Below are positions 1,236 through 28,915 of a stretch of DNA of 29,024 nucleotides, piece by piece. Positions within the stretch are counted from its first letter, which is position 1. The number at the start of each line of letters is the position of its first letter. The notes under the pieces were generated by a model. The model saw only the letters and a program-made list of their open reading frames with translations. It did not search any database and was not told the DNA's origin. Position numbers and translations under genes: made by a program. Source of the DNA: a virus; IMG/VR virus record IMGVR_UViG_3300021964_000361, positions 1 through 29,024 of that record, one strand, 5' to 3'.

Positions 1236-1461
1236 AGCAGTCAAAGAACTCATTAAAGTTGCAAAAGAACCGATTGTTGAAACTGATGATGATGTTTCAG
1301 CCGATCGACTCAAGAACGCTGCAGCCACTAAAAAGCTCGCAATATTCGATGCATTTGAGATATTAAATAGAATCGAAATTGAAAAAGCATTATTAGAAGG
1401 CAAGAATATAGAAGAAAGAGCAGAGTCATTTAAAGGCTTTGCAGAAAGAAGATCTAAGTAA
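1189..1461 (+). CDS. Candidate small terminase subunit (by position) or terminase partner
   Basis: This frame encodes a 90-residue, almost entirely helical, charged protein. The middle (DDVSADRLKNAAATKKLAIFDA) looks like a helix-turn-helix-sized unit, and a helical C-terminus ends in FAERRSK. Gene order puts the small terminase, which binds phage DNA and guides the large subunit, directly before the large terminase gene. No specific TerS motif was recognised. The start is uncertain: the ATG at 1189 overlaps the upstream gene by 47 bases, and in-frame ATGs at 1141 and 1102 overlap it even more. Its stop shares one base with the terminase ATG (TAATG), implying coupled translation. Confidence 0.6.
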   Translation: MNVKEQKQNIIQAGYEAVKELIKVAKEPIVETDDDVSADRLKNAAATKKLAIFDAFEILNRIEIEKALLEGKNIEERAESFKGFAERRSK

Positions 1462-3680
1462 TGTACGAGCAATCATTATATCGCATTATAGAGCCTATAA
1501 AAATCAATACGATTAAAAGGCTTAATAAAGCAAAAAAGTGGAAATACGGATACGATAAGGGCCATGATGTGGTTGTTATCAGCAAGACTGGACAGATTGG
1601 TGATGTGTATAGCATACAAAATTTAAAAATAGCATTGCCTCCTACGCCGAAGAACTTAGATAAAGGAAATAATAAATGGAGTAAAATAGAATATCCAAAA
1701 GAACTTGCAAAGTTAAAAACGATATTCGATTGGAAAGATTTACCGAATGAATTTAAAAATAAGTGGAATGCATATATTGATACAGAATTTACCAAACGCG
1801 ATGAAGGTTATTGGTTCTATAACAAGGATGTTCCTACTTATATTACTGGGTCTCATTACATGTACCTGCAGTGGACTAAAATCGACGTGGGTGCTCCAGA
1901 CTTCAGGGAAGCAAACAGATTATTCTTTTTATTCTGGGAAGCTTGCAAAGCAGACGTTCGATGTTATGGAATGTGCTACCTCAAGAATAGACGGAGTGGG
2001 TTTTCATTCATGGCATCAGCAGAGACTGTTAACCAAGCTACCATCTCTTCAGACTCTAGGTTTGGGATATTATCCAAATCTGGTTCTGACGCCAAGAAAA
2101 TGTTTACAGATAAGGTCGTTCCAATATCCGTTAATTACCCATTCTTTTTTAAACCCATACAGGATGGAATGGATAGGCCTAAGACAGAACTGGCTTATCG
2201 TGTACCCGCAAGTAAGTTTACAAAGAAAAGTATACTCACGAATCAAAGGAACGAGGAACTCGCGGGATTGGACACTACCATCGACTGGAAGAACACGGGG
2301 GACAACTCCTATGATGGTGAAAAGCTTTCGCTCTTGGTCCACGATGAAGCAGGAAAATGGGAGAGGCCCGAGAACATCCTCAACAACTGGCGTGTCACGA
2401 AAACCACGTTAAGATTAGGAAGTAGAGTTATTGGTAAATGTATGATGGGTTCAACAAGTAACTCATTAGACAAAGGTGGTGAGAACTTTAAAAAATTATA
2501 CAATGACTCAGATGTTACAAAAAGAAACCGTAATGGACAGACTCGCTCAGGATTATATAGTTTGTTCATACCTATGGAATGGAACTTCGAAGGATTCATT
2601 GATACTTATGGAATACCTGTATTCAATACTCCCGAAGAGCCAATTGAAGACAACTATGGGGAATACATTGATGTCGGGGTTATCGATCACTGGGAAAACG
2701 AAGTTGAAGGTTTAAAAGGAGATCAAGACGGTTTAAATGAATTTTATCGTCAATTTCCAAGGACTGAAGAACATGCTTTCAGAGATGAAACTAAAAATAG
2801 CATATTTAATCTTGCTAAGATTTACGAACAGATCGATTTTAATGACGACGCTACAGCGGAAGTTAATATTACCACTGGATCTTTTTCGTGGCAGAACGGT
2901 GTTAAAGATACAACAGTACAATTTACACCAAATCCTAATGGAAGATTTAAAGTAAGCTGGGTGCCAAGTTTAAATTTACAAAATAATATTTTAATTAAAA
3001 ATGGATTTAAATACCCTGGTAACGAACATATGGGTGCATTTGGCTGCGATAGCTACGATATATCCGGAACTACCGACGGTAAAGGTTCTAAAGGATCTTT
3101 GCACGGACTTACTAAGTTTAGTATGGAAGATGCACCACCGAACCGGTTTTTTCTAGAGTATATAGCTAGACCACAAACCGCTGAAATGTTTTTTGAAGAT
3201 GTGTTAATGGCATTAGTGTTTTATGGAATGCCAATACTTGCGGAAAATAACAAACCTAGATTATTATATTATTTAAAGCGAAGAGGTTATAGAGGTTACT
3301 CAATGAACCGACCAGATAGAACTTGGAACAAGCTATCGACCGCTGAAAAAGAAATAGGTGGCATACCAAACTCAAGTGAGGATATAAGGCAAGCGCATGC
3401 TGCCGCAATAGAAACATATATAAATTCGCATGTTGGAATTAAATCCGATGGAACTTATGGTGATATATATTTTAATACCACATTAAATGATTGGGCTAAG
3501 TTTGATATAAACAAAAGAACAAAGTTTGATGCCGCTATAAGTTCAGGTTTAGCAATTATGGCATGTAATAGACATTTATATAGGCCACATGGCGAAAGAG
3601 AAAAATCAAAAGTTAATATTAGCTTTGCACGATACGAAAATAAAGGAACTTTATCAAAAATAATAAAAAACTATGGCTGA
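1461..3680 (+). CDS. terL: Terminase large subunit (packaging ATPase/nuclease)
   Basis: This 739-residue protein pumps DNA into the prohead and cuts concatemers. The Walker A site is deviant: K175-NRRSGFS has Phe181 where the usual lysine stands. Its lysine at the start of the loop and R178 match the arrangement known in lambda gpA (KSARVGYSK). Walker B is LLVHDE (residues 291-296) with D295/E296. The C-terminal RNase H-like nuclease has plausible acids D530 (GCDSYD), E595 (LAENN) and D690 (KFDAA). Length is at the long end for TerL. The segment around 1850-2410, coding for the ATPase core, is about 50% GC against about 30% on both sides. The next gene starts 8 bases before this stop. Confidence 0.93.
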   Translation: MYEQSLYRIIEPIKINTIKRLNKAKKWKYGYDKGHDVVVISKTGQIGDVYSIQNLKIALPPTPKNLDKGNNKWSKIEYPKELAKLKTIFDWKDLPNEFKNKWNAYIDTEFTKRDEGYWFYNKDVPTYITGSHYMYLQWTKIDVGAPDFREANRLFFLFWEACKADVRCYGMCYLKNRRSGFSFMASAETVNQATISSDSRFGILSKSGSDAKKMFTDKVVPISVNYPFFFKPIQDGMDRPKTELAYRVPASKFTKKSILTNQRNEELAGLDTTIDWKNTGDNSYDGEKLSLLVHDEAGKWERPENILNNWRVTKTTLRLGSRVIGKCMMGSTSNSLDKGGENFKKLYNDSDVTKRNRNGQTRSGLYSLFIPMEWNFEGFIDTYGIPVFNTPEEPIEDNYGEYIDVGVIDHWENEVEGLKGDQDGLNEFYRQFPRTEEHAFRDETKNSIFNLAKIYEQIDFNDDATAEVNITTGSFSWQNGVKDTTVQFTPNPNGRFKVSWVPSLNLQNNILIKNGFKYPGNEHMGAFGCDSYDISGTTDGKGSKGSLHGLTKFSMEDAPPNRFFLEYIARPQTAEMFFEDVLMALVFYGMPILAENNKPRLLYYLKRRGYRGYSMNRPDRTWNKLSTAEKEIGGIPNSSEDIRQAHAAAIETYINSHVGIKSDGTYGDIYFNTTLNDWAKFDINKRTKFDAAISSGLAIMACNRHLYRPHGEREKSKVNISFARYENKGTLSKIIKNYG

Positions 3681-6045
3681 GTCCGTTTTAAAAAGTTACT
3701 TCCCAAGCCAAACAGCTAGCGACGACGAAAAACTATCACAAGATTATGGTTTGAAAGTAGCTAGAGCTATAGAAAATGAATGGTTTAAGAAAGACAGAGG
3801 GGTCAATAGATTCTTCGTAAATCAAAACCAATATCATAAATTAAGACTATATGCGAGGGGAGAACAAAGCATACAAAAATATAAAGATGAATTATCAATT
3901 AACGGTGATTTATCATATTTAAATTTAGATTGGAAACCAGTTCCTATTATACCTAAGTTTGTAGATATAGTTGTAAATGGTATTGCAGAAAGAACATACG
4001 ATATAAAAGCATTTTCACAAGATCCTTTTGGTGTAAGTAAAAGAACGTCATATATGCAAAATATACTTGCAGACATGCGTACAAAAGAATTTACACAAGA
4101 AATAAAAGATTCGTTTGGTTTTGATTTAGGCAGTATGCCAACTGAAGAATTACCAGATAATGAAGAAGAATTGCAATTACATATGCAATTAAATTATAAA
4201 CAAGCTGTTGAAATTGCTGAAGAACAAGCAATACAAACTGTATTTAATCAAAATAGTTACGAAAATATAAAGAAAAGATTATTTTATGATTTAACGGTAT
4301 TAGGTGTTGGATGCGTTAAAAATAATTTTACACAATCAGAAGGTATTAAGATTGAATACGTAGATCCTGCGAACATAGTACATTCATATTCTGAATCACC
4401 ATACTATGACGACATATATTATATTGGTGAAATAAAAAATATAAATGTTAACGATCTTAAAATGCAATTTCCAAATCTTACAGATGAGGATTTAAAAAAG
4501 ATTACACAACAAGGGAGCCAAGATTATAACACATATAATAAATACAATACACAAGTAAACAATAAAGATAATAATTCAGTTCAGATTATGTACTTTAATT
4601 ATAAAACGTACATGAATGAAGTTTACAAAGTAAAACAAACTTCTACGGGTGCTGAAAAAATTATCAAAAAATCTGATGCGTTTATGGCTACACCTATTGA
4701 TGGTGAGTTAAGATTTGAACGTATTGCTAAAAATATTGAAGTATTATATGAAGGTGTATTTATACCGGGATCAAATATATTATTAGAATGGAAACTTGCT
4801 GATAATATGTTAAGAGAAAAAAGTGATGTTAATAAAGTTAAATTAAATTACTCATTAGTATCACCAAGAGTGTATAACGGTAGAATTGAATCATTAGTGA
4901 GCAGAGTTACAGGCTTTGCAGATATGATACAATTAACACATTTAAAAATACAACAAGTGCTTTCAAGAATGGTACCGGATGGTGTATATTTAGACGCGGA
5001 TGGATTAGCTGAAATTGATTTGGGTAATGGAACAAATTATAATCCCCAAGAAGCATTAAATATGTTTTTTCAAACAGGTTCTGTTATTGGTAGATCATTT
5101 ACAGCTGAAGGTGATATGAATCCAGGTAAAGTACCTATTCAAGAAATAAGTAATAATGCAGGTGCAAATAAATTAGCGCAATTAATTAGTACATATAACT
5201 ATTATATGCAAATGATTAGAGATGCTACTGGTTTAAATGAAGCAAGAGATGGAAGTACTCCTGATAAAAACGCGTTGGTTGGTGTACAAAAACTTGCAGC
5301 AGCAAATAGTAATACAGCAACAAGACACATATTACAAGCTGGATTATTCTTAACTGCTGAAACTGCAGAGAAAATATCTTTAAGAATATCTGATGTATTA
5401 GAATACTCACCAACAAGAGATGCATTTATTCAAAGTATTGGTGCACATAACGTTGCAACATTACAAGAATTAACTGAATTACATCTTTATGATTTTGGTA
5501 TATTTTTAGAATTAGCGCCAGACGAAGAAGAAAAACAAATATTAGAAAATAATATTCAAGTTGCAATTGGTCAACAAAACATTGATCTAGATGATGCAAT
5601 TGATATTAGGCAAATTAAAAATGTTAAACTTGCTAATCAACTTTTAAAATTAAGAAGAAAAAAGAAATTAGAAAGAGATCAAAGAATACAACAGCAAAAT
5701 ATTCAAGCGCAAGCGCAGGCAAACGCTCAAGCGCAACAAGTTGCAGCACAGGCTGAAGTGCAAAAACAACAAGCATTAACTCAAAGCAAAATTGAATTAG
5801 AGTCAGTAAAAAGTCAAATGGAAATGTCTAAACTTCAAGCTGAAAAAGAAATGAAAAAAGAATTAATGCAATTAGAATTTCAAATAAATATGCAATTACA
5901 GGGCATGGCACAACAAGCATCCACTCAGCAATTGCAAATAAAAGAAGACGCGAAAGCGCAAAAACAAACCGCTAAGCCCTTTGAATCATCGGGTAATGAT
6001 ATATTAAGTGGCGGATTTGGCTTAGGTGCATTTGAACCTAAGTAA
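3673..6045 (+). CDS. Portal protein
   Basis: This 790-residue protein should form the ring at the capsid vertex through which DNA enters and leaves. The call rests on its place between TerL and scaffold/capsid, its size (crAss-like portals are similarly long) and typical portal features. These are a conserved helical body, a stem/wing-like central part (residues about 400-560, with RDATGLNEARDGS) and a long C-terminal crown/barrel extension. From about residue 657 to 775 the sequence is Gln/Ala/Lys-rich coiled coil, with alternating CAAGCGCA-like repeats in the DNA near 5705-5745. It ends in a glycine-rich tail (SGGFGLGAFEPK). The start overlaps TerL by 8 bases. Confidence 0.88.
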   Translation: MAESVLKSYFPSQTASDDEKLSQDYGLKVARAIENEWFKKDRGVNRFFVNQNQYHKLRLYARGEQSIQKYKDELSINGDLSYLNLDWKPVPIIPKFVDIVVNGIAERTYDIKAFSQDPFGVSKRTSYMQNILADMRTKEFTQEIKDSFGFDLGSMPTEELPDNEEELQLHMQLNYKQAVEIAEEQAIQTVFNQNSYENIKKRLFYDLTVLGVGCVKNNFTQSEGIKIEYVDPANIVHSYSESPYYDDIYYIGEIKNINVNDLKMQFPNLTDEDLKKITQQGSQDYNTYNKYNTQVNNKDNNSVQIMYFNYKTYMNEVYKVKQTSTGAEKIIKKSDAFMATPIDGELRFERIAKNIEVLYEGVFIPGSNILLEWKLADNMLREKSDVNKVKLNYSLVSPRVYNGRIESLVSRVTGFADMIQLTHLKIQQVLSRMVPDGVYLDADGLAEIDLGNGTNYNPQEALNMFFQTGSVIGRSFTAEGDMNPGKVPIQEISNNAGANKLAQLISTYNYYMQMIRDATGLNEARDGSTPDKNALVGVQKLAAANSNTATRHILQAGLFLTAETAEKISLRISDVLEYSPTRDAFIQSIGAHNVATLQELTELHLYDFGIFLELAPDEEEKQILENNIQVAIGQQNIDLDDAIDIRQIKNVKLANQLLKLRRKKKLERDQRIQQQNIQAQAQANAQAQQVAAQAEVQKQQALTQSKIELESVKSQMEMSKLQAEKEMKKELMQLEFQINMQLQGMAQQASTQQLQIKEDAKAQKQTAKPFESSGNDILSGGFGLGAFEPK

Positions 6046-15961: not shown

Positions 15962-16636
15962 ATGGCAATAGGTGCAATAGTACAGGGCGTCGGTCAAGTG
16001 GCAGGTTTAGTTAGTGCGTTTAGTGGTGGTAGAAAAAGAAGAAGAGAACAAAGAGCGGCTGAGGCTGAAATGGGCAGATATAAAGAAAAATATGAGCAAT
16101 TGGATACTTCTAATCCTTATGCAAATATGACAAACCCTTTTGAAAATTTAACTGTTAATACACAAGCGGCTGATTTTGCAGCACAACAAAATTCACAAAA
16201 TTCCGCAAATATTATGAGTGGTTTAGCGGCGGCGGCCGGCGGCGGTGGCATAGCGGCATTAGCACAATCTATGGCTAATTCACAAGCTCAAGCAACACAG
16301 CAAGCATCTGCAAGTCTTGCACAGCAAGAATCACAAAATCAACAATTAGCTGCACAAGGTGAATTTAAAAGACAATCAATGATTGCTGCAGGTGAGCAAG
16401 AAGCGCAATCAAGAGAAGCTTCTAAAACAGCAACGTTGTTAGGTATGTCGCAGCAAAGAGTTGCAGCAGCTAAACAAGCTAGAGAAAAAGCTACACAACA
16501 ACAACTAGGCGCTTTATCTGGTGCTGCTGGAGATCTTGCTAGTGAAGAAAGTGGATTAAAAGCCTTGGGTGGATTAGCTGCAAAAGGTGGCCAAGCAATA
16601 GGTGGCCTTGTAAAAGGTTTAGGCGTAGGATTATAA
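15962..16636 (+). CDS. Ala/Gln-rich internal virion (ejection/cargo-type) protein
   Basis: This is a 224-residue protein. A hydrophobic, glycine-containing N-terminal helix (AIGAIVQGVGQVAGLVSAFSGG, in parts) is followed by a basic stretch (RKRRREQR, residues about 24-31). Then comes a long Ala/Gln/Ser-rich region with a glycine tract (AAAAGGGG) and a hydrophobic Gly/Leu-rich C-terminus (GGLVKGLGVGL). Short internal proteins with this composition occur in podophages such as P22 (gp7-like) and T7 (gp14-like), where they leave the head with the DNA and help build a channel through the cell envelope. The role is inferred from composition and position. It lies 29 bases after the muzzle gene and 10 bases before the next. 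Confidence 0.6.
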   Translation: MAIGAIVQGVGQVAGLVSAFSGGRKRRREQRAAEAEMGRYKEKYEQLDTSNPYANMTNPFENLTVNTQAADFAAQQNSQNSANIMSGLAAAAGGGGIAALAQSMANSQAQATQQASASLAQQESQNQQLAAQGEFKRQSMIAAGEQEAQSREASKTATLLGMSQQRVAAAKQAREKATQQQLGALSGAAGDLASEESGLKALGGLAAKGGQAIGGLVKGLGVGL

Positions 16637-16646
16637 TAATAAAGAT

Positions 16647-17834
16647 ATGGCAAAAACAACAACATTTGGAGCGGTAAATACAGCATTAGTGCAGGGCGCA
16701 GGAGCGGCTTATAAAGATTATAGCACTGATAGTTTTAATAAAGCTAATCAAGCTATAACTAAATTATTTGAAGCTAAGCAATCAAAAGAAAAAGCAGAAA
16801 AAGAAAAAATACAAAATAGTATACAGGCTTCTGTTGCTGAAATTGGAGATGTTGATATTTCTAAAACACCACCTGAACAAAGAGATGCGCAATTTGCAGC
16901 ATTGAATGATATACGTGGAAATGTAGCAAATCTTGAAAATCAAAAACACGAATTGATTAATAAATATGGACTTCCGCCAAATTCAAAAGAAGTTTTAGAT
17001 ATTGTTAATCAAATAAGTCAATCAAAACAGCAATTTGGCATGATTTCAAAAGATGCAGAAACTTTTCAAGCAATGCGTCAAGAATTTATAAATAACGGTG
17101 GACAATATTCTAAAGGCGTGCCTATTGAAGTCCAAGATAAATTAGATAAACTATTTGCTAAAAATGGCCAATACACTACTGAAATAGTAAACGGCAGGCA
17201 AGTATACAAAACAGAAGACGGCACCGTAATTACAAATGAAGATTTACAAAAAGGTTATTTTTTAAAAGATTCTAAAATGGCTACATATGTAATGGACGGG
17301 GTTGATAAAATTTATTCAAAGGGTAGCTCAGGAAAAGGTTTTACTAATACGGATGAAATGGTATTAGGACAAAGCATTAAAAATGAAATTTTAGCAGGTG
17401 GGGCAGAAAGGGTGGCATCAATGTTACATGATGACATTTTTGGAATGAATATTGATTTATTTAACGACGCCGAAACTGCGGCAATAGAAGCATTACCGTT
17501 TGAAGATCAAGTTAACCAAATAACTACTAAATTAATTGGTCATTATAAAAACGTATATAATGACGCCAAAAAAGAATATACCGCAAAGCAACAAGCAACA
17601 TCAACAGAAACAACAACACCATGGGGACAAGGAGTATTTAGAACAGATGCTGGAACAAGAATTCAATGGAATGAAAATGGATCTAAAGGGCCAGGTTACT
17701 ACGAAATGGGCAAAAGATCAGGGGGTTCTAAATTTAATAATGAAGTTTCTGGGCCTTTTACTAACCCAAATGACATATACAACTTATCGGTTGGCAATAA
17801 TATAAAATTAGGAAACCCACCATCTCAATCATAA
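16647..17834 (+). CDS. Putative internal virion protein, unknown family
   Basis: This is a 395-residue protein. Residues about 20-140 are helical and charged, with a possible coiled coil (KAEKEKIQNSIQASVAEI). The centre is mixed. Residues about 315-395 are Gly/Thr/Asn-rich and end abruptly in NPPSQS. It has no cysteine-rich or catalytic motif that I recognise. It sits between the Ala/Gln-rich protein and the giant protein with no gap to the latter (TAA then ATG directly). The three probably form one ejection/cargo set. It may be a partner or assembly factor for the giant protein. Confidence 0.6.
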   Translation: MAKTTTFGAVNTALVQGAGAAYKDYSTDSFNKANQAITKLFEAKQSKEKAEKEKIQNSIQASVAEIGDVDISKTPPEQRDAQFAALNDIRGNVANLENQKHELINKYGLPPNSKEVLDIVNQISQSKQQFGMISKDAETFQAMRQEFINNGGQYSKGVPIEVQDKLDKLFAKNGQYTTEIVNGRQVYKTEDGTVITNEDLQKGYFLKDSKMATYVMDGVDKIYSKGSSGKGFTNTDEMVLGQSIKNEILAGGAERVASMLHDDIFGMNIDLFNDAETAAIEALPFEDQVNQITTKLIGHYKNVYNDAKKEYTAKQQATSTETTTPWGQGVFRTDAGTRIQWNENGSKGPGYYEMGKRSGGSKFNNEVSGPFTNPNDIYNLSVGNNIKLGNPPSQS

Positions 17835-20800
17835 ATGGAAGATCAAATTTACTACACCCCTGATGGTGTTGAAATTCCTTTGTCTACAATAGAACAAGAG
17901 GCTAAGGCTAACAATATTACTATTGACGAAGTTATTAGTAAAAATAACTATACCACAGAAAAACTTGCATTTGAGCCAAAAATAAATAAAGATTTTAAAC
18001 CTTCCTTTAATATTCCAAAAAATTTAGGTAAAACTATTAGAAAAGAAGATGGCACTAGAATAGAAGAAAAACCTATTATTGAGCCAAATAAAAAAACAAT
18101 AGTTAAAAGTGATGGTAATTCAATTAAAGTTAATGAAGATATTAATCTTAAAAATGCTTCTTTTGAAAGCCAAATGGTTTCAAGAATTGTTAAACACGAG
18201 CCCAATGTAAATTACCAACATGAAAATAAGGCTGACGATACAAGTAATACTTTTATTGCGGACTATTACGACCCTATTAAACTAGCATCAGCTGGTGTTA
18301 ATAAAGATGATTTTGCTGGCTGGCTTAACACTTCAAATAGGTATAAACAATTATCTGAAGATATAAATAAAGGTATATATAAACCTAAAGCAAATGTATA
18401 TAGTGATTTAAAAGAAAAAGCTTTGTTCGAAAGTAACTTATCAGCATTGTTAGATGATTATGCAAGTTACAGAGATGAAAGAAGAAATGACATAAATGCA
18501 ATAAATGCACTTATGTCCAAAAAACAAAAAAAATTTAGTAAAGAAAATAAATCTATAAATAGTGAAATAAAAGATTTAAATTTAACAAAAGTAACAGAAT
18601 TTGGTGAAGATTTTTTTAACTATAAAAAAGAACAATTTTCTAATTTAACTGAATTTGAACTTCAGCAACAAGAAAAACTAATTAAAAAAATTAATCAATT
18701 AGAAAAAAGAACAGATTTAGATGATGCTATAGCTGCTCCGGCTAATGCAATAGGCAGTGTTCCAATTGGGGCTTTTGAACAAGGTAGAAATTTATTAGTT
18801 GAATTGGGTGGTTTATTTAGTGATGATTGGGCAAAAAAACAAAGATTATTAATAGATTTTTCTGATAAAAATAGAATAGGAAATAAATTAGATTATACAT
18901 ATTTTGATGGTAAATCTACAGTTATAGACGGTGTAGAATATGGGTTGGAAAAGGATGGTAGTATATATAATTTAACGCATGGGTATAGGGCTAACGAAGT
19001 TTTAAATCCGCTAAGATATAAATATTTAGTTGGAAAAATAAAAGAAGAAGGAAAGGAAAAAAGTGATTGGAATGGAAGAGGGGGAAGCAAACAATTAGGT
19101 AATGTTATTGGAGGAGTATTATTTCAATTAGCGGGAGCATATACTACAGGTGGTGCTACCACATTATTAGGCAGAGGCGCTCAAGCTTTAGGCGCAAGTA
19201 AAGCTATAAAACTAACTAGAAATACAAAAGGTATTATAGATAATACTTTATTCCAAAGTTTTTATGGCGCAATGAATGGCCAAGAATCTACATTAAAAGC
19301 AGCTTATGATGCCGGATTATCTGACGAAGAAGCAGAAAATTTAGCTGGAATTGCTGCAAAAAACATGGGCGTATTGTATGCTGTTACAGGACCTCTAGCT
19401 CCAAGATTACCCGCCTTGAAAGCTATGGATGACGCTTTAACAAAAGGTGGTGCATGGAAAAGAATAATTAACGCTTATAATGGTACTAAAAGTTACAAGG
19501 CCGCTGATGCTGAGGTAAAAAGTATTATTAATAATTTTATACCAAGTAAACAAAGTGTTGTTACATTTGCTAAAGAAGGTGGAAAAGAAACTGTTCAAGA
19601 AAATATACAACAAGCGGGTGAATACCTGTGGGTCAACAAGCGTACTAATGAATTGGCCCAACAAGATATAATAAAAGATGAATATACAGAAAAAGATATA
19701 AAAGTAACCTCTGCTTTATCCTTTGCTACGGGTGGTTTGGTTTCAAGACTGGGTAATATAAATAATAAGCCTTATAACAAAAATAAAATATTTGATTTAT
19801 ATACAGTTGGAGATAATTTAAATGGGGCAGAAACAAGATTAAATGATGCTGTAAGTGCAGGAAAAATAAATAAACGCCAAGCCAATAAAATATTAAATGA
19901 CGCTAAAAATGTAAAAGAAGCGTATGATAATAATTCTATTCCTCCTTATATATCAAGTGTTGACCCTGAAGCATATGTTAAAATTGCAGGGCTACAATCT
20001 AAACTAAATGGTTTAAAACAAAAAAAGAAAGGTTTTGGTAAACTATCTGACCCTAGATTAGATCAAGAAATAGAAAAAATTGAAAACCAAATTCAAAAAG
20101 CAGCAGAGCCCGCGGCTAAAAAAATAATTGAAGAAGATATTGAGGTTGCTAGTAAATATGCAACTGTAAAGAAATTTAAAAATGCTAAAGAAGCTCAAGC
20201 AGCTGGTATAAAAGATTTAGATGCTAATACAGATGGTATAATTGAAAAAGATGGCACTATATATATTAATGAAGAAATTGCTGCTAAAAATAATATTGCA
20301 GTTACCTCGCACGAATTACTACATAAAATATTAAAGAAACAATTTAATGTAGAAGGATTGCCTACGGAAGAGCAAGCTAATATATTAAAAGATTTTAAAA
20401 GCTTATTAGATGAAGCTGGATTACTAGCTAGCGTGGAAGAAAGAATGAAGCTTTATAAAGAACAAGGTATTGATGTTGAAGGAAAGGCTATGGACGAATA
20501 CTTTACAGCTTTTTCAGATATATTAGGGGTTGCTGGAAAACAAGGATTAGATATACAAGCATTAAGAAAAAACAAATCATTAGGCCAAAAAATTGCAAAT
20601 TTTGTAGAAAATATATTAGCACAATTTGGTGTAGCAAAAAAGTTTAAAAAAGCAGAAGATGTTTGGGATTTTATTATAGATTATCAAAAGAATTTTCAAC
20701 AAGGTAAATTAACTAAACAAGCTAAAGCACAATTAAAAGCTGGCGAAAAAATTAAAGGCGACACCAAAAAATCTTTATCAAAAGTTAAATCTGAATTAAG

Positions 20801-23800
20801 CAATATTAAAATAGAGGATTTACAAAGTTTACCTGCTCAAAATACTATAGGTAAAAACTTACCAAGTATGGCACTTGCCCAAATAATAAATAGAAATAAA
20901 ATATGGCAATTGCCACCTTCTTTAACTGAAGAGATGCAGGCTGATTTAACAGCTAGAACATTAATAGATTTAAACAATAACCCTTGGGATGGCAGAGGTG
21001 ATTTATATGGTTATATAAATGGTAGAATTAAATTTAGATTAAAAGATTTAGTTGACAAAGAATTAAAAACACCAGTAAGTGAAAGAGTATATTTTAAGCA
21101 AGAAGGCATAGACCCTGCTGATTTAAAAATAGCCGAAGAAACACCAGTGCCTGTAGCGGAGGAAACACAAAGAATATATAATATTGAAAAAGCTTTTACT
21201 CCTACACAAATACAGGACATTGATGCGGAGCTTTTAACAATAGCTAGAATATTTACTACAGGTATTAGCGAAGTAGAATTAAATAGAAAAAGCTCAGATT
21301 TTATTAGAGATTTTAAAAAGAGAGCAAAAAAATCACAAGCAATACCTTTAATTAAAGAATCTCTTAAAGTAAAAGGCAAAGTAAACCCTAATAAATTTTT
21401 AAAATTAAAAAGACCTATATTAGAAGGTACAACAACAACTTATTTATCTAGAGCATACCCTGAGGTTATTGAAAAATCTGTTGATGGTAAATATGAAGGT
21501 AAAATTTTTAACCCAAATTTTGTTAAATTTCCTGAATGGCAAGGTAAAAAAATTGATAGAGAAAAAACAAGTACAGATAGCGCGGGTAGAACAGCTGGGC
21601 ATGATTTAGTAAGAAGAAGGAAAAAAGCTGCAGATGTTTTAAGTAATATAGAATTTTTACAAAAAAGCTTTACCAATATAAAAATTGAAGAAGATAAAGT
21701 TTTGCCAATTGATCCAAAAAAACCAATGAACCCTGTTTCACAAAATTCAATTGATTCTCCTATAACACAAGTTGCTACTGAAGCATTGTTAAGCAGGTTT
21801 GTTACAAAATTAACAGAAGGTAACAATGAAATATCAAATGCTTTTGAAAAAGCACAAGCAATAAGAGGGCAGATTCTTGCAGAAAATTATGTGGCTAATG
21901 TTACAATGCAAGCTGAAGAAGGTGGCGTTAAAAAATCTATATCTTTTCCTAGAGCTGCAAATATATTGGTAAATCAAATAACATTAAGGGGTCTTGATAA
22001 TGTATTAGATGCAGAAAATAATGTAATTTTAGGAGGTAAAATAGCTGGAGAAGTATTTGGGCCAAATGAATTTAATAAAATAACAGGATATTCATCTGAT
22101 GGAAATATATTACCACCATTAGGTACTTTTGTAAAAAATGTATTTGATTTAGGATTTATAACTGATGAACCTACAATGAGGTTTATGCAAAGTGTTAAAA
22201 AATCTGAAATTATACAAAAAGTTTTAAAAGATTCAGGATTAACTTTTGATAATGCAATAACAAGGGGAAGTACAACAGAAACATTAAATGGGTTGGCTAC
22301 TGATATGTCAAAAACTATGAAAGCCTTGGGCTCTCAAGTAATAAATACATTTTCAGATAAAGGACAAAAAATGTTTGGATTTTACAATAGAGTATTAGAC
22401 CCTGCCTCTAGAAAACAAGATGAAATTGCGACTACAACAGCAAAACTAAATAATCCTAATGCAAAAACAATTTATTTAACAAATCCTGACGGTAGTTTTG
22501 TTGAAGGTAAATATTATCAAAAATTTAAAAACACTCAAGAATCTTTAAAAAGCATAGATGTACCTGATTTAGATTTAAATGATATTAAGCTCATGAATTC
22601 TCAAAAGGGAATTATGAAAAAAATAAGCAATATAACTAATTCTGATGCAAGTGTTCAAGAAAAATTAAAAGCTATAGAAAAGTTATCTCCTGAAATACAA
22701 GCGGCTAATGTAGCTAATAAAGAATTAGCAAAATATATAGTAAAAATAATTAGAGCACAATATAAAGCGGGAAATATAAAACCAACATCTGTGTTGGCAT
22801 TTTTCCAACAACAAACAAGTGCTGATGAGGGATTAAGAGCTTTAAGTGGATGGTTATATGTAACTGTACTCCCTGGTAAACAAGGCGTAATGAAAGGTGA
22901 GCATTTAGAGCCAAATGCAAATACTATGTTTAAGTTAGCCGAGTTAATATTCGATGAAAACATAGGAGATATACAATTTGATAATTTAGTTGACGAAGCA
23001 TTAATGTTCCACGATCAATGGTTAGAAAATAAAGAAGACTTAAAAATTATTGATGCACCTGGCAGCACTATTGATGCGGCTGATAGTAGAATATTAATAA
23101 ATCCTAATAGATTAAAAAATATATATACGACAAATGGTGTACCAACCTTAGAGTTTATAGAAGCAAGAAATCAAGCATTTAAACTTAGGAAAGCATCAAA
23201 TGAAAGTTTAAAAAATGGTCAATTAAAAGATCCTTCTGTAAAGAAAAGTATTTCTGTAGATTTAAATAAAGAAATAAACGAAATGATTTTTAGGCAAAAA
23301 GGAGTGAGACCCGAAACAACTTATTCTTCGGTTGTTGCCAGAAAAAAAGGTGCAAGTAAAGGAAGATTTAAATTCTTTTTACCAGCTACAGCAGAAGATT
23401 TTAGAGGTTTAACATCATATACATTTGCAGGCAAAGGAAAACAAGGAGAAGCTGATCAAAAGTTTTTTGAAGATAATATTCTAAAGCCATACATGAAAGG
23501 TATTTCAGCTATGGAAATGGCTAGACAAGCATTTAAAAATGATTATAATACTTTATTAAAAACTTTACCTAGCGTAAAGAAAAAACTTAATAAAACAATA
23601 AGTGATACTGATTTTACAAATGATCAAGCTATAAGAGTTTACTTATATAATAAATCTGGATTTGAAGTTCCCGGTATTTCTAAAAGAGATTTAAAATTAT
23701 TAAATAATTTAGTTAATAATGATCCGGAGTTGAAATCATTTGCAGATACATTATTAGATATAAGTAAAAGAGAAGTATGGGTTGAACCTGACCAATTTTG

Positions 23801-25454
23801 GGATGCGGGAAGTATATTAAAAGATATTAACAGTATAGACCAAACTATATCAAGAAAAGAGTATTTAGCAGATTTTATTGAAAACGTAGACATAATGTTT
23901 AGTGATGCTAATTTAAACAAAATAGAAGCGCTATACGGCCCAAAACATGTGGAAGCGTTGAGAGATATTATAAGAAGAATGAAATCTGGTAGTAATAGAC
24001 CGCCAGGTACGGGAGATAGATTGACTACAGCATGGTTAAACTGGGTAAACAATTCAGTTGGTACCATAATGTTTTTTAACAGAAGATCAGCATTGTTACA
24101 GATGATTTCATTTGCTAACTTTACAAACTGGTCAGATAATAATCCATTAATGGCTGCAACTGCATTTGCAAATCAGCCGGCGTTTTGGAAAGCATGGACA
24201 GAAATATTCAATTCAGACAAATTAAAGCAAAGAAGAGGAGGATTAAAATCTGACGTACAAGAACAAGAAATTGCTAATCAAGCTAAGAATTCGCCTAATA
24301 AAATTCAAGCAACTATATCTTATTTATTAAAAATAGGTTTTACACCAACGCAAATAGCGGATAGTGTTGCTATTGCAACTGGTGGTGCTACATTTTTAAT
24401 TAATAGAACAAAAACATACGAAAAGCAAGGCATGACTTATGAAGATGCAAGAAAAAAAGCTTTTGAAGATTTTAGTGCTATATCTGATGAAACGCAGCAG
24501 TCAGGTGATCCAATGCTTATTTCTAAGCAGCAATCTGGACATTTAGGTAGATTTATACTGTCATTTCAAAATACACCAATGCAGTATACTAGGTTAATGA
24601 AGAAAGCTGCACAAGATTTAATAAACGGTAGAGGTGATTGGAAAACAAATGTAAGTAAAATAATTTATTACGGGTTTGTTCAAAACTTGATATTTGCTAC
24701 ATTGCAAAACGCTTTATTTGCATTGTTGCCTGGGTTTGACCCTGATGATGACGAAGAAGGTTACGAAAGATTGATTGATAGTAAGCAGCAAAGAATAATA
24801 AATGGTATGGGTGATACTATTTTAAGAGGTAGTGGATTGGCTGGAGCGGTTGTTTCAACTCTTAAAAATGCAATATTGAGGTACATGAAAGAGGAAGAAA
24901 AAGGATTTACTGCTGATCATGCTTACACCATATTAGAGCTTGCTAATGCGTCCCCACCTCTTGGCTCAAAGCTTAGAAAAGTTTATGGGGCAATACAAAC
25001 TAAAAGATTTGATCAAGACATTATTGACGCTAGAAAATGGGAAGCTACTAAAGATGGTAGATTAAATTTATCACCTAGTTACAAAATATTAGGTAATTTA
25101 GTTTCCGCAGGTGCAAATATACCGCTAGATAGAGCAATAGCTGAAACAGAAGCGATAGCAGAAGCTTTAAATTCAAGAAATACAGCAATGCAAAGAATGG
25201 CATTAGCCTTAGGTTGGAGAACTTGGGATGTTAATATTAGAAATGAAGACCACGAATTAATCAAAACAGAGGCTAAAGCTAAAAGAAAAGCAGAAGGTAT
25301 TAAAAAAGCAAAACAAACTCGAAAAAGAAATGCCGAATTAAAAAGTCAAATTATTGACGGTATGACTCAAAAACAATATGATGCATATGAAAATTTAAAT
25401 AAAGAAGATAAAAAAGAATTTATTAAAAAAGAAATAGAGAAACTAAATAAATAA
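17835..25454 (+). CDS. Giant 2539-residue virion protein with zinc-protease motif
   Basis: This very long multidomain protein is probably packed in the head and ejected with the DNA. The N-terminus is disordered and carries two similar units, KTIRKEDGTRI (residues 66-76) and KTIVKSDGNSI (87-97). Residues about 420-450 are a hydrophobic Gly/Ala stretch that could insert in membranes. HELLH at 826-830, preceded by a strand (TIYIN) and followed by E888 in MDEYF, fits a zincin peptidase. Residues about 1049-1075 (NPWDGRGDLYGYINGRIKF) match a pattern recalled from other giant phage proteins. Residues about 2276-2302 are hydrophobic. The end is Lys/Arg-rich. crAss-like cargo and 'polyvalent' phage proteins are the nearest concepts. 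No DFDGD motif of the crAss-like RNA polymerase was seen. Confidence 0.8.
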   Translation: MEDQIYYTPDGVEIPLSTIEQEAKANNITIDEVISKNNYTTEKLAFEPKINKDFKPSFNIPKNLGKTIRKEDGTRIEEKPIIEPNKKTIVKSDGNSIKVNEDINLKNASFESQMVSRIVKHEPNVNYQHENKADDTSNTFIADYYDPIKLASAGVNKDDFAGWLNTSNRYKQLSEDINKGIYKPKANVYSDLKEKALFESNLSALLDDYASYRDERRNDINAINALMSKKQKKFSKENKSINSEIKDLNLTKVTEFGEDFFNYKKEQFSNLTEFELQQQEKLIKKINQLEKRTDLDDAIAAPANAIGSVPIGAFEQGRNLLVELGGLFSDDWAKKQRLLIDFSDKNRIGNKLDYTYFDGKSTVIDGVEYGLEKDGSIYNLTHGYRANEVLNPLRYKYLVGKIKEEGKEKSDWNGRGGSKQLGNVIGGVLFQLAGAYTTGGATTLLGRGAQALGASKAIKLTRNTKGIIDNTLFQSFYGAMNGQESTLKAAYDAGLSDEEAENLAGIAAKNMGVLYAVTGPLAPRLPALKAMDDALTKGGAWKRIINAYNGTKSYKAADAEVKSIINNFIPSKQSVVTFAKEGGKETVQENIQQAGEYLWVNKRTNELAQQDIIKDEYTEKDIKVTSALSFATGGLVSRLGNINNKPYNKNKIFDLYTVGDNLNGAETRLNDAVSAGKINKRQANKILNDAKNVKEAYDNNSIPPYISSVDPEAYVKIAGLQSKLNGLKQKKKGFGKLSDPRLDQEIEKIENQIQKAAEPAAKKIIEEDIEVASKYATVKKFKNAKEAQAAGIKDLDANTDGIIEKDGTIYINEEIAAKNNIAVTSHELLHKILKKQFNVEGLPTEEQANILKDFKSLLDEAGLLASVEERMKLYKEQGIDVEGKAMDEYFTAFSDILGVAGKQGLDIQALRKNKSLGQKIANFVENILAQFGVAKKFKKAEDVWDFIIDYQKNFQQGKLTKQAKAQLKAGEKIKGDTKKSLSKVKSELSNIKIEDLQSLPAQNTIGKNLPSMALAQIINRNKIWQLPPSLTEEMQADLTARTLIDLNNNPWDGRGDLYGYINGRIKFRLKDLVDKELKTPVSERVYFKQEGIDPADLKIAEETPVPVAEETQRIYNIEKAFTPTQIQDIDAELLTIARIFTTGISEVELNRKSSDFIRDFKKRAKKSQAIPLIKESLKVKGKVNPNKFLKLKRPILEGTTTTYLSRAYPEVIEKSVDGKYEGKIFNPNFVKFPEWQGKKIDREKTSTDSAGRTAGHDLVRRRKKAADVLSNIEFLQKSFTNIKIEEDKVLPIDPKKPMNPVSQNSIDSPITQVATEALLSRFVTKLTEGNNEISNAFEKAQAIRGQILAENYVANVTMQAEEGGVKKSISFPRAANILVNQITLRGLDNVLDAENNVILGGKIAGEVFGPNEFNKITGYSSDGNILPPLGTFVKNVFDLGFITDEPTMRFMQSVKKSEIIQKVLKDSGLTFDNAITRGSTTETLNGLATDMSKTMKALGSQVINTFSDKGQKMFGFYNRVLDPASRKQDEIATTTAKLNNPNAKTIYLTNPDGSFVEGKYYQKFKNTQESLKSIDVPDLDLNDIKLMNSQKGIMKKISNITNSDASVQEKLKAIEKLSPEIQAANVANKELAKYIVKIIRAQYKAGNIKPTSVLAFFQQQTSADEGLRALSGWLYVTVLPGKQGVMKGEHLEPNANTMFKLAELIFDENIGDIQFDNLVDEALMFHDQWLENKEDLKIIDAPGSTIDAADSRILINPNRLKNIYTTNGVPTLEFIEARNQAFKLRKASNESLKNGQLKDPSVKKSISVDLNKEINEMIFRQKGVRPETTYSSVVARKKGASKGRFKFFLPATAEDFRGLTSYTFAGKGKQGEADQKFFEDNILKPYMKGISAMEMARQAFKNDYNTLLKTLPSVKKKLNKTISDTDFTNDQAIRVYLYNKSGFEVPGISKRDLKLLNNLVNNDPELKSFADTLLDISKREVWVEPDQFWDAGSILKDINSIDQTISRKEYLADFIENVDIMFSDANLNKIEALYGPKHVEALRDIIRRMKSGSNRPPGTGDRLTTAWLNWVNNSVGTIMFFNRRSALLQMISFANFTNWSDNNPLMAATAFANQPAFWKAWTEIFNSDKLKQRRGGLKSDVQEQEIANQAKNSPNKIQATISYLLKIGFTPTQIADSVAIATGGATFLINRTKTYEKQGMTYEDARKKAFEDFSAISDETQQSGDPMLISKQQSGHLGRFILSFQNTPMQYTRLMKKAAQDLINGRGDWKTNVSKIIYYGFVQNLIFATLQNALFALLPGFDPDDDEEGYERLIDSKQQRIINGMGDTILRGSGLAGAVVSTLKNAILRYMKEEEKGFTADHAYTILELANASPPLGSKLRKVYGAIQTKRFDQDIIDARKWEATKDGRLNLSPSYKILGNLVSAGANIPLDRAIAETEAIAEALNSRNTAMQRMALALGWRTWDVNIRNEDHELIKTEAKAKRKAEGIKKAKQTRKRNAELKSQIIDGMTQKQYDAYENLNKEDKKEFIKKEIEKLNK

Positions 25455-26648: not shown

Positions 26649-27110
26649 ATGAATAAAATAAGTGAACACATTAGTTACAAGGAGGGTGTGTATAGCAAAA
26701 CAGCGGAAAGATTAGGTATTGAAAATACACCTACCGCGTATCATTTGCAAAATATGGAATTGATTGCTGAAAAAGTATTTGAGCCACTAAGGAAAGCAGC
26801 TAATGGCCCTATAGCTATAAACTCATTTTATCGCTGTGATAAATTAAATACTGCAATCGGTGGGTCAAGTAAATCACAACATTGTGAAGGCCGTGCGATT
26901 GATATTGATGACACGTATGGTTACATGTCAAATAAAGATATGTACGAATACATTAAAAATAATCTTGATTTTGATCAGCTCATATGGGAATTTGGAAATG
27001 ATAATAACCCTAATTGGGTTCATGTTAGCTATGTTGATCACGATTCCAACAGACAAAGATGTCTGAAAGCATATAAAGAAAACGGTAAAACTAAATATAA
27101 ATTAATATAA
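26649..27110 (+). CDS. M15-family peptidase endolysin
   Basis: This 153-residue protein is a zinc D-Ala-D-Ala-type carboxypeptidase/endopeptidase. The M15 signature is clear: SQHCEGRAID gives H78 and D85, and NWVHVS gives H125, as the three zinc ligands, with INSFYRC upstream and an acidic residue near E114 as possible general base. Such enzymes cut the peptide part of peptidoglycan to release phage. There is no signal peptide, so it needs a membrane hole, for which the protein two genes upstream is the candidate. Length is normal for a single-domain M15 phage enzyme. A role in virion entry is less likely given its place beside lysis-type genes. Confidence 0.88.
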   Translation: MNKISEHISYKEGVYSKTAERLGIENTPTAYHLQNMELIAEKVFEPLRKAANGPIAINSFYRCDKLNTAIGGSSKSQHCEGRAIDIDDTYGYMSNKDMYEYIKNNLDFDQLIWEFGNDNNPNWVHVSYVDHDSNRQRCLKAYKENGKTKYKLI

Positions 27111-27193: not shown

Positions 27194-28915
27194 TTAACCA
27201 TCACACGCTAAACAATTTTCATCCATTGCCTGATCAGCAATATCCCCTCTCAAAACAGATTCCGTTCGCACATAATATAAGGTTTTAATACCTTTTTTCC
27301 ATGCTTCATAATGTACTTTATTAATCCACTTCGGCGTAGCCACAGAAGGAAAAGCTAAATTTAAAGAAACAGATTGGTCAATATATTGTTGACGTATACC
27401 TGCTTGATTAACTAATTCTAGTTGATTAATTTCTTTAAATGTTTTAAACACTTCTTTTGCTGGCGTATCCCATTTGCCTATAGTTATATCATCAAGTTCT
27501 TTAATACCTTGTACAGAACCTCCATCTTTTAAAATTTTGTTCCAAACTTTTTCATTATTAATTTTATATTTTTTTAATAATTTTAATAATGTAGGGTTCT
27601 TGCGAATGAAAGTACCTTTAGCGCTTTGTTCCGTAAATACATTAGCGGCCCAGGGTTCGATACCGGGACTAACATTGCCACTAAGTTTACTATTGCTAAC
27701 AGTAGGAGCAATGGCGCGGAGATGAGTATTCCTAAAACCTGAGCCCCTACACCATAGAGGTTCACCAAAGTCTTCTGCAAGTGCCATGGAAGCTCTCTCA
27801 CTTTCAATTTTAATTTGTGAAAATATTTTTCTTGTTTCATATTGTGCTAATAGCCCTTCAAACGGTAAGCCTTGATCTTGCAAATAAGTATGCCAGCCAA
27901 GCACCCCTAACCCTAAAGCTCTACCCTTTTCAGCAGATCTTACAGAATTATGAAAACCAACTTTACCTTTGGACTTTTGTATAAATTCTTCTAACACGCC
28001 ATCTAAAAACCATATACTATCGTATATAAGATTCGTGTTTTTCCATTCATCGTACTTGGCTAAGTTTAACGATGATAAACAACAAACAAACGAATGAGAT
28101 TCATCAGTATGTAATGTAATCTCACTGCATATGTTTGTCATATGTACTTTTAATCCGTGCTTTCTGTATTGCTCTGGATTATTTTTGTTTGTATTCCCCT
28201 TAAATAAGATATAAGGTTCTCCAGTTGCTTTACGTTTTTGAAGTAGCTTACCCCATAACCTCCTCGCATCTTTATCGCCAGCATCAAGTTTTCGCATAAA
28301 CTTGTCGCCGACCACAGCGCACTGGTGTAAGTTGAGCGATTGACGATTAACGTCTCCTTTAGGCTCTCGTATTTCCAACCACTCTTCAAAGTCGGGGTGA
28401 TCAATATTAATATTAACGCTTGCAGCTCCTCTTCGGACAGATCCTTGATTCGTGGCAAGTATAGTTGAATCGTATATCTTAGCAAAAGGCACAACTCCGT
28501 CAGATGTTCCATTTCCAGTTATATTAGCTCCGGCGGGTCTAATCATATTTATTCCGATACCCACTCCGCCGCCGTGTTTTGCGAGTAGCATCATCTCTAA
28601 GTTTTTCATTCCAATCTCATATATCGAGTCTCCAACATCAATACCAAAGCATGATATAGGCAAACCTCGATCTGTGCCAGTATTAGACAGCACAGGAGAC
28701 GCTAAACATAGCCAACCCTTCCATATATATTGAAAAAAAGTTTCGGCTAGTTCTGGACGATTTAAACGTTTCGCTACAGTTGTAGCAACACGTGTATAAG
28801 CATCTTTTGGGGTTTCATTTCCTATAAGGTAACCACCTCCAATTGTTTTTTTATACACGTCCGTATCACCCCACGAGGGGTAATCTTCATTTTTTTTCCA
28901 GTTTGGGTTCCACAT
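27194..28915 (-). CDS. nrdA: Ribonucleoside-diphosphate reductase, class I alpha subunit
   Basis: This 573-residue enzyme reduces ribonucleotides to deoxyribonucleotides and needs a radical-generating beta subunit, not seen here. Expected residues are present: redox Cys C89 (ISCF) and C278 (CCLSSLNL), active-site N261, C263 and E265 (NICSE), the radical-transfer pair Y547-Y548 (LYYVR), and C-terminal thiols C568/C571 (NCLAC). The N-terminus is about 136 residues shorter before the first redox Cys than in E. coli NrdA, so the ATP-cone that senses dATP is absent, as in several phage and NrdE-type enzymes. GC is about 40-47% over most of the gene but falls steeply near 27481-27600. The upstream gene overlaps its start by 29 bases. 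Confidence 0.93.
   Translation of the reverse strand: MWNPNWKKNEDYPSWGDTDVYKKTIGGGYLIGNETPKDAYTRVATTVAKRLNRPELAETFFQYIWKGWLCLASPVLSNTGTDRGLPISCFGIDVGDSIYEIGMKNLEMMLLAKHGGGVGIGINMIRPAGANITGNGTSDGVVPFAKIYDSTILATNQGSVRRGAASVNINIDHPDFEEWLEIREPKGDVNRQSLNLHQCAVVGDKFMRKLDAGDKDARRLWGKLLQKRKATGEPYILFKGNTNKNNPEQYRKHGLKVHMTNICSEITLHTDESHSFVCCLSSLNLAKYDEWKNTNLIYDSIWFLDGVLEEFIQKSKGKVGFHNSVRSAEKGRALGLGVLGWHTYLQDQGLPFEGLLAQYETRKIFSQIKIESERASMALAEDFGEPLWCRGSGFRNTHLRAIAPTVSNSKLSGNVSPGIEPWAANVFTEQSAKGTFIRKNPTLLKLLKKYKINNEKVWNKILKDGGSVQGIKELDDITIGKWDTPAKEVFKTFKEINQLELVNQAGIRQQYIDQSVSLNLAFPSVATPKWINKVHYEAWKKGIKTLYYVRTESVLRGDIADQAMDENCLACDG

Follow-up and report, generated by a model that had tools for sequence, protein, structure and literature searches.

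Background

We begin by considering the described phage proteins that carry an embedded zincin. In 2017 Iyer et al. (PMC5512222) reported such zincins for polyvalent proteins that are injected; there, HExxH marks the first conserved C-terminal helix of the metallopeptidase (MPTase) and a Glu the second, and 12 MPTase clades are published. In the virion RNA polymerase (vRNAP) of phage N4, too, there is an embedded zincin, and it precedes a C-terminal domain that is large, helical and of unknown fold (PMC12633501); Iyer et al. linked this zincin to the lethal-factor superfamily (PMC5512222).

With these systems we compare one giant gene in a linear virus record of 29 kb, analysed over its whole length of 29,024 nucleotides (the window). 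The giant resembles the polyvalent proteins of Iyer et al. in being a multidomain giant encoded among the virion genes of a portal-terminase phage, in having its zincin inside the chain, where HExxH is followed by a Glu of the next conserved helix, and in its predicted delivery together with the DNA. It differs in that its zincin is detected by no library model searched, in a domain that looks like region 2 of sigma-70 (the word "sigma" is absent from PMC5512222), and in a conserved helical C-terminus of ~700 aa with no family or fold match.

N4 gp50 (Schitoviridae) is likewise a giant ejected protein (3,500 aa) with an internal zincin (HELVH at 2228), and likewise the last of a small-medium-giant trio, gp52-gp51-gp50. 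In N4, however, a T7-like RNAP lies upstream of the zincin, whereas none is found by Pfam in the window giant, and no HMM of the giant gives a reliable match to gp50. PF00940 is absent from 26 records, in a search where the control is likewise silent.

PhiCrAss001 has a similar layout with a muzzle-type tail upstream and giant virion-carried cargo proteins downstream (PMC10172136). The giant HMMs give no reliable match to its gp45, gp46, gp47, gp49 or gp50. By annotation gp47 (2,341 aa, L208:16120-23145) is a putative RNA-polymerase subunit; it has HEAFH at 2157 with EENMAEGF downstream, probably an unannotated zincin, and differs from the window giant in that the motif lies near the C-terminus. 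The passages searched in the structural paper (PMC10172136) make no mention of a protease.

Of the same-slot giants in cultured phages, two come closest. The giant of Elemovirus elemoA (3,694 aa) has a homologous zincin at residues 1477-1666 (E 2e-9 with 6 sequences, 5e-9 with 14 sequences), and Gundel_74 of Tenacibaculum phage Gundel (2,482 aa) has an HEFGH motif and a C-terminal match at E 7e-13. Beyond that, both can hardly be aligned with the window giant, from which they differ in length and in where the zincin lies.

Genome neighbourhood and likely host

The genes that place the giant in its context are as follows.

1461..3680, + strand: terminase large subunit (phrog_6681, E 3e-165)
3673..6045, + strand: P22-like portal protein (family matches, cultured-phage relatives)
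11298..15932, + strand: muzzle-type tail protein with a crAss_MUZ_C domain (family match)
15962..16636, + strand: Ala/Gly-rich protein of 224 aa with an N-terminal hydrophobic segment, probably a small ejection protein
16647..17834, + strand: protein of 395 aa, by position the middle member of a small-medium-giant trio ordered like that of N4
17835..25454, + strand: giant polyvalent/ejection protein, a single open frame with ATG start (2,539 aa, ~284 kDa)

The coding-phase GC is uniform along the frame of the giant. The gene order is terminase, portal, capsid/virion structural genes, muzzle, 224-aa protein, 395-aa protein and giant, with the giant as the last gene of this morphogenesis cluster, which runs from terminase, portal and capsid to muzzle and ejection genes. 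Downstream, the window has a Peptidase_M15 endolysin-like gene (26649-27110, + strand) and, on the strand opposite to the giant, the large subunit of ribonucleotide reductase (27194-28915, - strand).

The relatives of the portal and the muzzle among cultured phages are all flavobacterial podoviruses: Cellulophaga phages (Pervagoviridae, Pachyviridae), Tenacibaculum phage Gundel, Elemovirus and Maribacter phage Panino. One environmental genome (Manatee Spring) is added to them. In every such relative, the Manatee Spring genome included, a giant gene (1,691-3,859 aa) follows the muzzle cluster, and the records of phi38:1, Gundel and elemoA label their same-slot giants as structural. The phage of the window is a marine podovirus whose kin are Pervagoviridae, Pachyviridae and Elemovirus, and it probably infects flavobacteria. 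The sequence-only reading had taken the giant for a cargo protein that is probably ejected, and the gene order and the structural annotation of the same-slot giants lend support to this. By this analogy the giant is very probably carried in the virion and ejected.

Search for relatives of the giant

The whole giant has no relative at E 1e-3 in the annotated phage collection and none among the PDB sequences, and it gives no usable family match in Pfam, PHROGs or NCBIfam. Direct homology searches, whether the query is the entire giant or just the zincin of the window, retrieve no homologue from phages, the PDB or IMG/VR. Because these direct searches came up empty, the portal is used as a bridge. 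The portal alignment leads to 599 IMG/VR relatives, and 13 of the 37 portal-kin records searched contain a related giant. A zincin alignment was built from those 13 records and a subset of it served as the search pattern; the muzzle alignment and the all-giant zincin alignment are too diverse for a pattern search. The pattern leads to 80 further loci, each with a large open frame, and the muzzle gene lies just upstream (at most 6 kb from the giant) in 75 of the 80. The conservation of HELLH in loci L117-L196 is left out as evidence, because the search pattern itself contained the motif. The C-terminal domain of the giant has at least 576 relatives in IMG/VR, of which 80 were kept. Overall, relatives of the giant are found on more than 80 IMG/VR contigs.

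The zincin domain and its active site

The features of the predicted metallopeptidase are listed below.

20160..20714, + strand: zincin (gluzincin-type) metallopeptidase domain, residues ~776-960, from conservation, AlphaFold2 model and structural matches
20310..20324, + strand: HELLH (residues 826-830), with predicted zinc ligands H826 and H830 and general base E827; H, E and H are invariant in relatives
20454..20456, + strand: Y874, Tyr in 79/79 of the motif-selected set; in the C-terminus-selected set Tyr in 56/71 and Phe in 3
20496..20498, + strand: E888, predicted third zinc ligand, which starts the next long helix in the model (Glu in 79/79 and 71/71)

HELLH is the sole HExxH in all six frames of the window, and E888 follows 58 residues past H830. 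These positions, on which the idea of an embedded protease had been built, are exact, and they are conserved in relatives. HExxH is present in 11 of the 13 giants selected by the portal; of the other two, one carries HEVLGH and the other lacks a motif. The selection by the C-terminal domain is blind to the motif and gives HExxH in 61 of the 62 non-redundant complete proteins, with 50 of the 61 falling within a match to the zincin HMM. The loss of the motif in homologues, which the sequence-only reading had named as the sign that would count against it, is not what this set shows.

The conservation is concentrated on the catalytic positions. While the middle two letters vary among the giants (HELLH, HEFLH, HEVLH, HEVGH and others) and the spacing between H830 and E888 ranges from 48 to 104 residues in the 79-domain motif-selected set, the 79 unique domains, with a mean identity of ~31%, are invariant only at H826, E827, H830, Y874 and E888. 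In the first zincin alignment, from the portal-derived giants, the only invariant columns are N812, H826, E827, H830 and E888. The column of E888 is Glu in 79/79 unique motif-selected domains and in 71/71 C-terminus-selected sequences, counts to be read with the caveat that aligners favour Glu-to-Glu pairing; the neighbouring EEYxTxFSD context is common to the relatives. The column of D895 is D or E in most.

HELLH might also have arisen by chance, in an ordinary helix that belongs to no enzyme. Such a reading would agree with the lack of a match in Pfam, PHROGs or NCBIfam, and HExxH does arise by chance in 0.36% of the shuffled copies of the giant (a single-sequence control). It is contradicted by two sets totalling ~150 sequences, in which H, E, H and E888 stay invariant while middle letters and spacing vary, and by the topology of the AlphaFold2 model. 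We regard the chance motif as ruled out by this invariance and assign it hardly any probability.

The model was made with AlphaFold2 on residues 746-1400 using 67 sequences, and it has a mean pLDDT of 80, with the zincin blocks mostly at 84-96. Its predicted topology comprises an N-terminal helix (model residues 2-27), strands at 33-36, 56-58 and 64-67, the HELLH helix at 78-92 and, two helices later, a helix from E888 at 142-157. This core agrees with that of the polyvalent-protein MPTase, in which three strands are flanked by an N-terminal helix. The earlier reading would have been refuted by a HELLH in an ordinary helix with no third ligand nearby; the model instead has E888 opening a helix and, judged by topology, a zincin layout.

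Comparison with known structures and families gives weaker signals. Foldseek finds no significant match of the zincin model in the PDB or BFVD, and N4 vRNAP is absent among the structural matches. In VIA-align, the longest matches to the zincin region are to anthrax lethal factor and Certhrax, in both cases to the N-terminal (PA-binding) domain, which has a zincin fold; they are weak by themselves (Z 4.5-4.7 over 156-164 residues) but agree in kind. Peptidase_M78 (ImmA/IrrE) scores 12.6 bits in the window and up to 16.1 in relatives, below the curated cut-off of 22 bits, and in two relatives these sub-threshold matches sit on HExxH.

Domain I of anthrax lethal factor and the N-terminal domain of Certhrax are inactive zincin-fold copies. 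That the longest structural matches are to these copies would suit a degenerate zincin, kept in the giant for structure or binding only and non-catalytic. In contrast to the lethal-factor and Certhrax copies, however, the giants keep E827 as the base and the full set of three ligands without variation, and we consider degeneration highly improbable. The gluzincin-like metalloprotease proposed for the giant is supported by the conserved HExxH and Glu together with the zincin layout of the model. On these grounds we hold with great confidence that the giant has a zincin fold with an intact active site, in which H826, H830 and E888 would bind zinc and E827 would act as the base.

Several giants depart from this pattern. 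The giant of locus L115 has HEVLGH at residue 978, with EFFAYMF downstream, at an equivalent place, an HExxxH form, as if one clade replaced another; this form of the polyvalent-protein zincin was described by Iyer et al. (PMC5512222). The Manatee Spring giant (L004, 3,859 aa) has HEFGH twice, at residues 1615 and 2500, which suggests two zincin domains. HExxH is not found in the same-slot giants of phi38:1, phi13:2 and Panino, and it is missing from the giants of L107 (1,924 aa) and L249 (2,210 aa), which are natural zincin losses. The zincin activity would therefore be dispensable in some lineages. The L249 giant keeps its match to the sigma2-like domain although it has no HExxH.

The flanking regions of the giant

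On either side of the zincin lie regions that differ strongly in conservation.

17835..20144, + strand: N-terminal part, residues 1-770, of no known family; moderately conserved among the closest giants (0.30-0.47 at residues 361-720)
23232..25334, + strand: all-helical C-terminal domain, residues 1800-2500 (~700 aa), the best-conserved part of the giant

HMM comparison of the N-terminal part with N4 and crAss ejection proteins gives no match. An N-terminal membrane channel was considered and rejected; the Kyte-Doolittle mean reaches at most 1.39 anywhere in the giant (residues 2280-2298). Residues 1420-1790 are nearly without conservation. In the C-terminal domain, the identity per 60-residue block is 55-84% in the close group, with 41% at the end, and the near-invariant motifs include NSVGxIMFFN, ADSFAIAxGGATF and NTPMQY. 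Its model is all-helical (pLDDT 78) with one mildly hydrophobic segment. Foldseek against the PDB gives no significant match for this model, and structural comparison yields nothing but low-Z matches to long helices and transporters, among which no known fold is found. LPD38 (PF18857) does not match the C-terminal domain, in a search where the control is also silent.

A sigma2-like domain next to the zincin

We turn our attention to the domain that follows the zincin.

20787..21170, + strand: helical domain like sigma-70 region 2, residues ~985-1112, directly downstream of the zincin (structure and sub-threshold sequence matches)

In VIA-align on the giant model (746-1400), the nine best rows are all sigma factors, matched to residues ~982-1091 with Z 5.7-8.0 over 76-93 residues and rmsd 2.4-3.7, while the rest are below 5; values up to Z 8 can arise by chance when folds are helical. 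The PF04542 HMM matches the giants of six relatives (E 2.8e-5, 3.2e-5, 1.5e-4, 9.6e-4, 1.3e-3 and 4.5e-3), and all six matches map to this domain at 12-20 bits, below the curated cut-off of 24 bits; the window's own giant has no PF04542 match. In a Pfam scan of 26 domain members, Sigma70_r2 is the commonest family (6/26, best E 0.0025). The top match of the domain profile in the PDB is the T4 sigma gp55 (E 0.17). From model and sequence the domain looks like region 2 of sigma-70, the promoter-opening part of a sigma factor. The label is kept to "sigma2-like", and not sigma factor, because the scores lie below the cut-off, the window copy has no match, hhalign gives no similarity to the phages' stand-alone sigma and a Z of 8 can occur by chance.

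A stand-alone sigma factor of ~250 aa is also encoded in relatives: of the 66 record searches, 10 give PF04542 above the cut-off. Apart from the six matches in giants, the PF04542 matches of these searches lie in ~250-aa frames, and the frames that were read (L197-L205) are genes for a stand-alone sigma. The idea that the sigma2-like domain was copied from this stand-alone sigma was rejected, as hhalign of the two found no similarity.

Proposed role of the protease

Combining these observations, we propose for the window's phage a scheme of packaging, zinc binding and proteolysis, with its timing and substrate. The giant would be packaged intact together with the two smaller proteins from the genes just upstream, extruded via the muzzle tail at infection, and refolded in or behind the host envelope, where the zincin would cut the giant or a host protein close by. 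We find it fairly likely that the giant is the largest ejection protein, an effector of polyprotein-like build, and that its intact zincin makes such a cut after entry. The most economical substrate would be the giant itself, cut between an envelope-associated C-terminal part and a soluble sigma2-like part; the order of zincin, sigma2-like domain, variable region and conserved helical C-terminus suggests that such a cut would free the soluble part from the envelope-bound C-terminus. N4 vRNAP, by analogy the best-studied relative, is packaged unprocessed at full length (PMC5512222), so self-cleavage is not guaranteed. That the proteolysis after ejection acts on the giant has in our view nearly an even chance; that it acts on a host target is a lesser possibility.

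The timing of the cut could also be earlier. DdrB of phage P1, whose zincin is C-terminal, is cut to 76 kDa before packaging (PMC5512222). As proposed for DdrB, the zincin may act in assembly and, before packaging or in the course of it, trim the giant or virion proteins nearby. The internal position of the domain would fit the splitting of an N-terminal from a C-terminal piece. Yet the same kind of domain in N4 vRNAP is packaged at full length (PMC5512222), and the position of the giant gene after the tail genes suggests no role in head maturation. We consider cleavage in assembly unlikely.

A different reading concerns the target. Conflict systems commonly use zincin domains as effectors (PMC5512222), and the N-terminal and middle regions of the giant vary strongly while the C-terminus is conserved, as expected of delivered payloads. 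The zincin could then act as an effector against the host and degrade one particular protein there, for anti-defence or takeover, with the rest of the giant serving delivery and envelope passage. Against this, HExxH is kept in 61 of the 62 giants, whereas typical arms-race payloads come and go, and we judge a dedicated effector somewhat unlikely.

Returning to the cut after entry, a more specific extension is that the ejected polyprotein carries a sigma-like domain which the embedded zincin frees in the host, so that host RNAP would be turned to the phage promoters before any phage expression. Compared with the RNA polymerase ejected by N4, such delivery would bring a promoter-recognition subunit in place of a polymerase. 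We offer this as a speculative proposal and think it improbable.

Conclusions

The protease had been described from the sequence as a hidden enzyme. This holds for the libraries searched (Pfam, PHROGs and NCBIfam), but the phenomenon in general has been in the literature since 2017 (PMC5512222), and embedded zincins are already known both in injected phage proteins (PMC5512222) and in N4 vRNAP (PMC12633501). What is new is a large family without library models and the evidence for conservation of its active site. The sigma2-like partner, unmentioned in the survey of Iyer et al. (PMC5512222), may be new as well. Environmental phages thus have a large family of giants, probably carried in the virion, with a conserved predicted protease that the searched libraries do not name. 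With Elemovirus as a cultured system, the substrates of embedded zincins in ejected phage proteins become testable. If the sigma2-like domain is real, it would represent a new way of starting phage transcription from within the virion.
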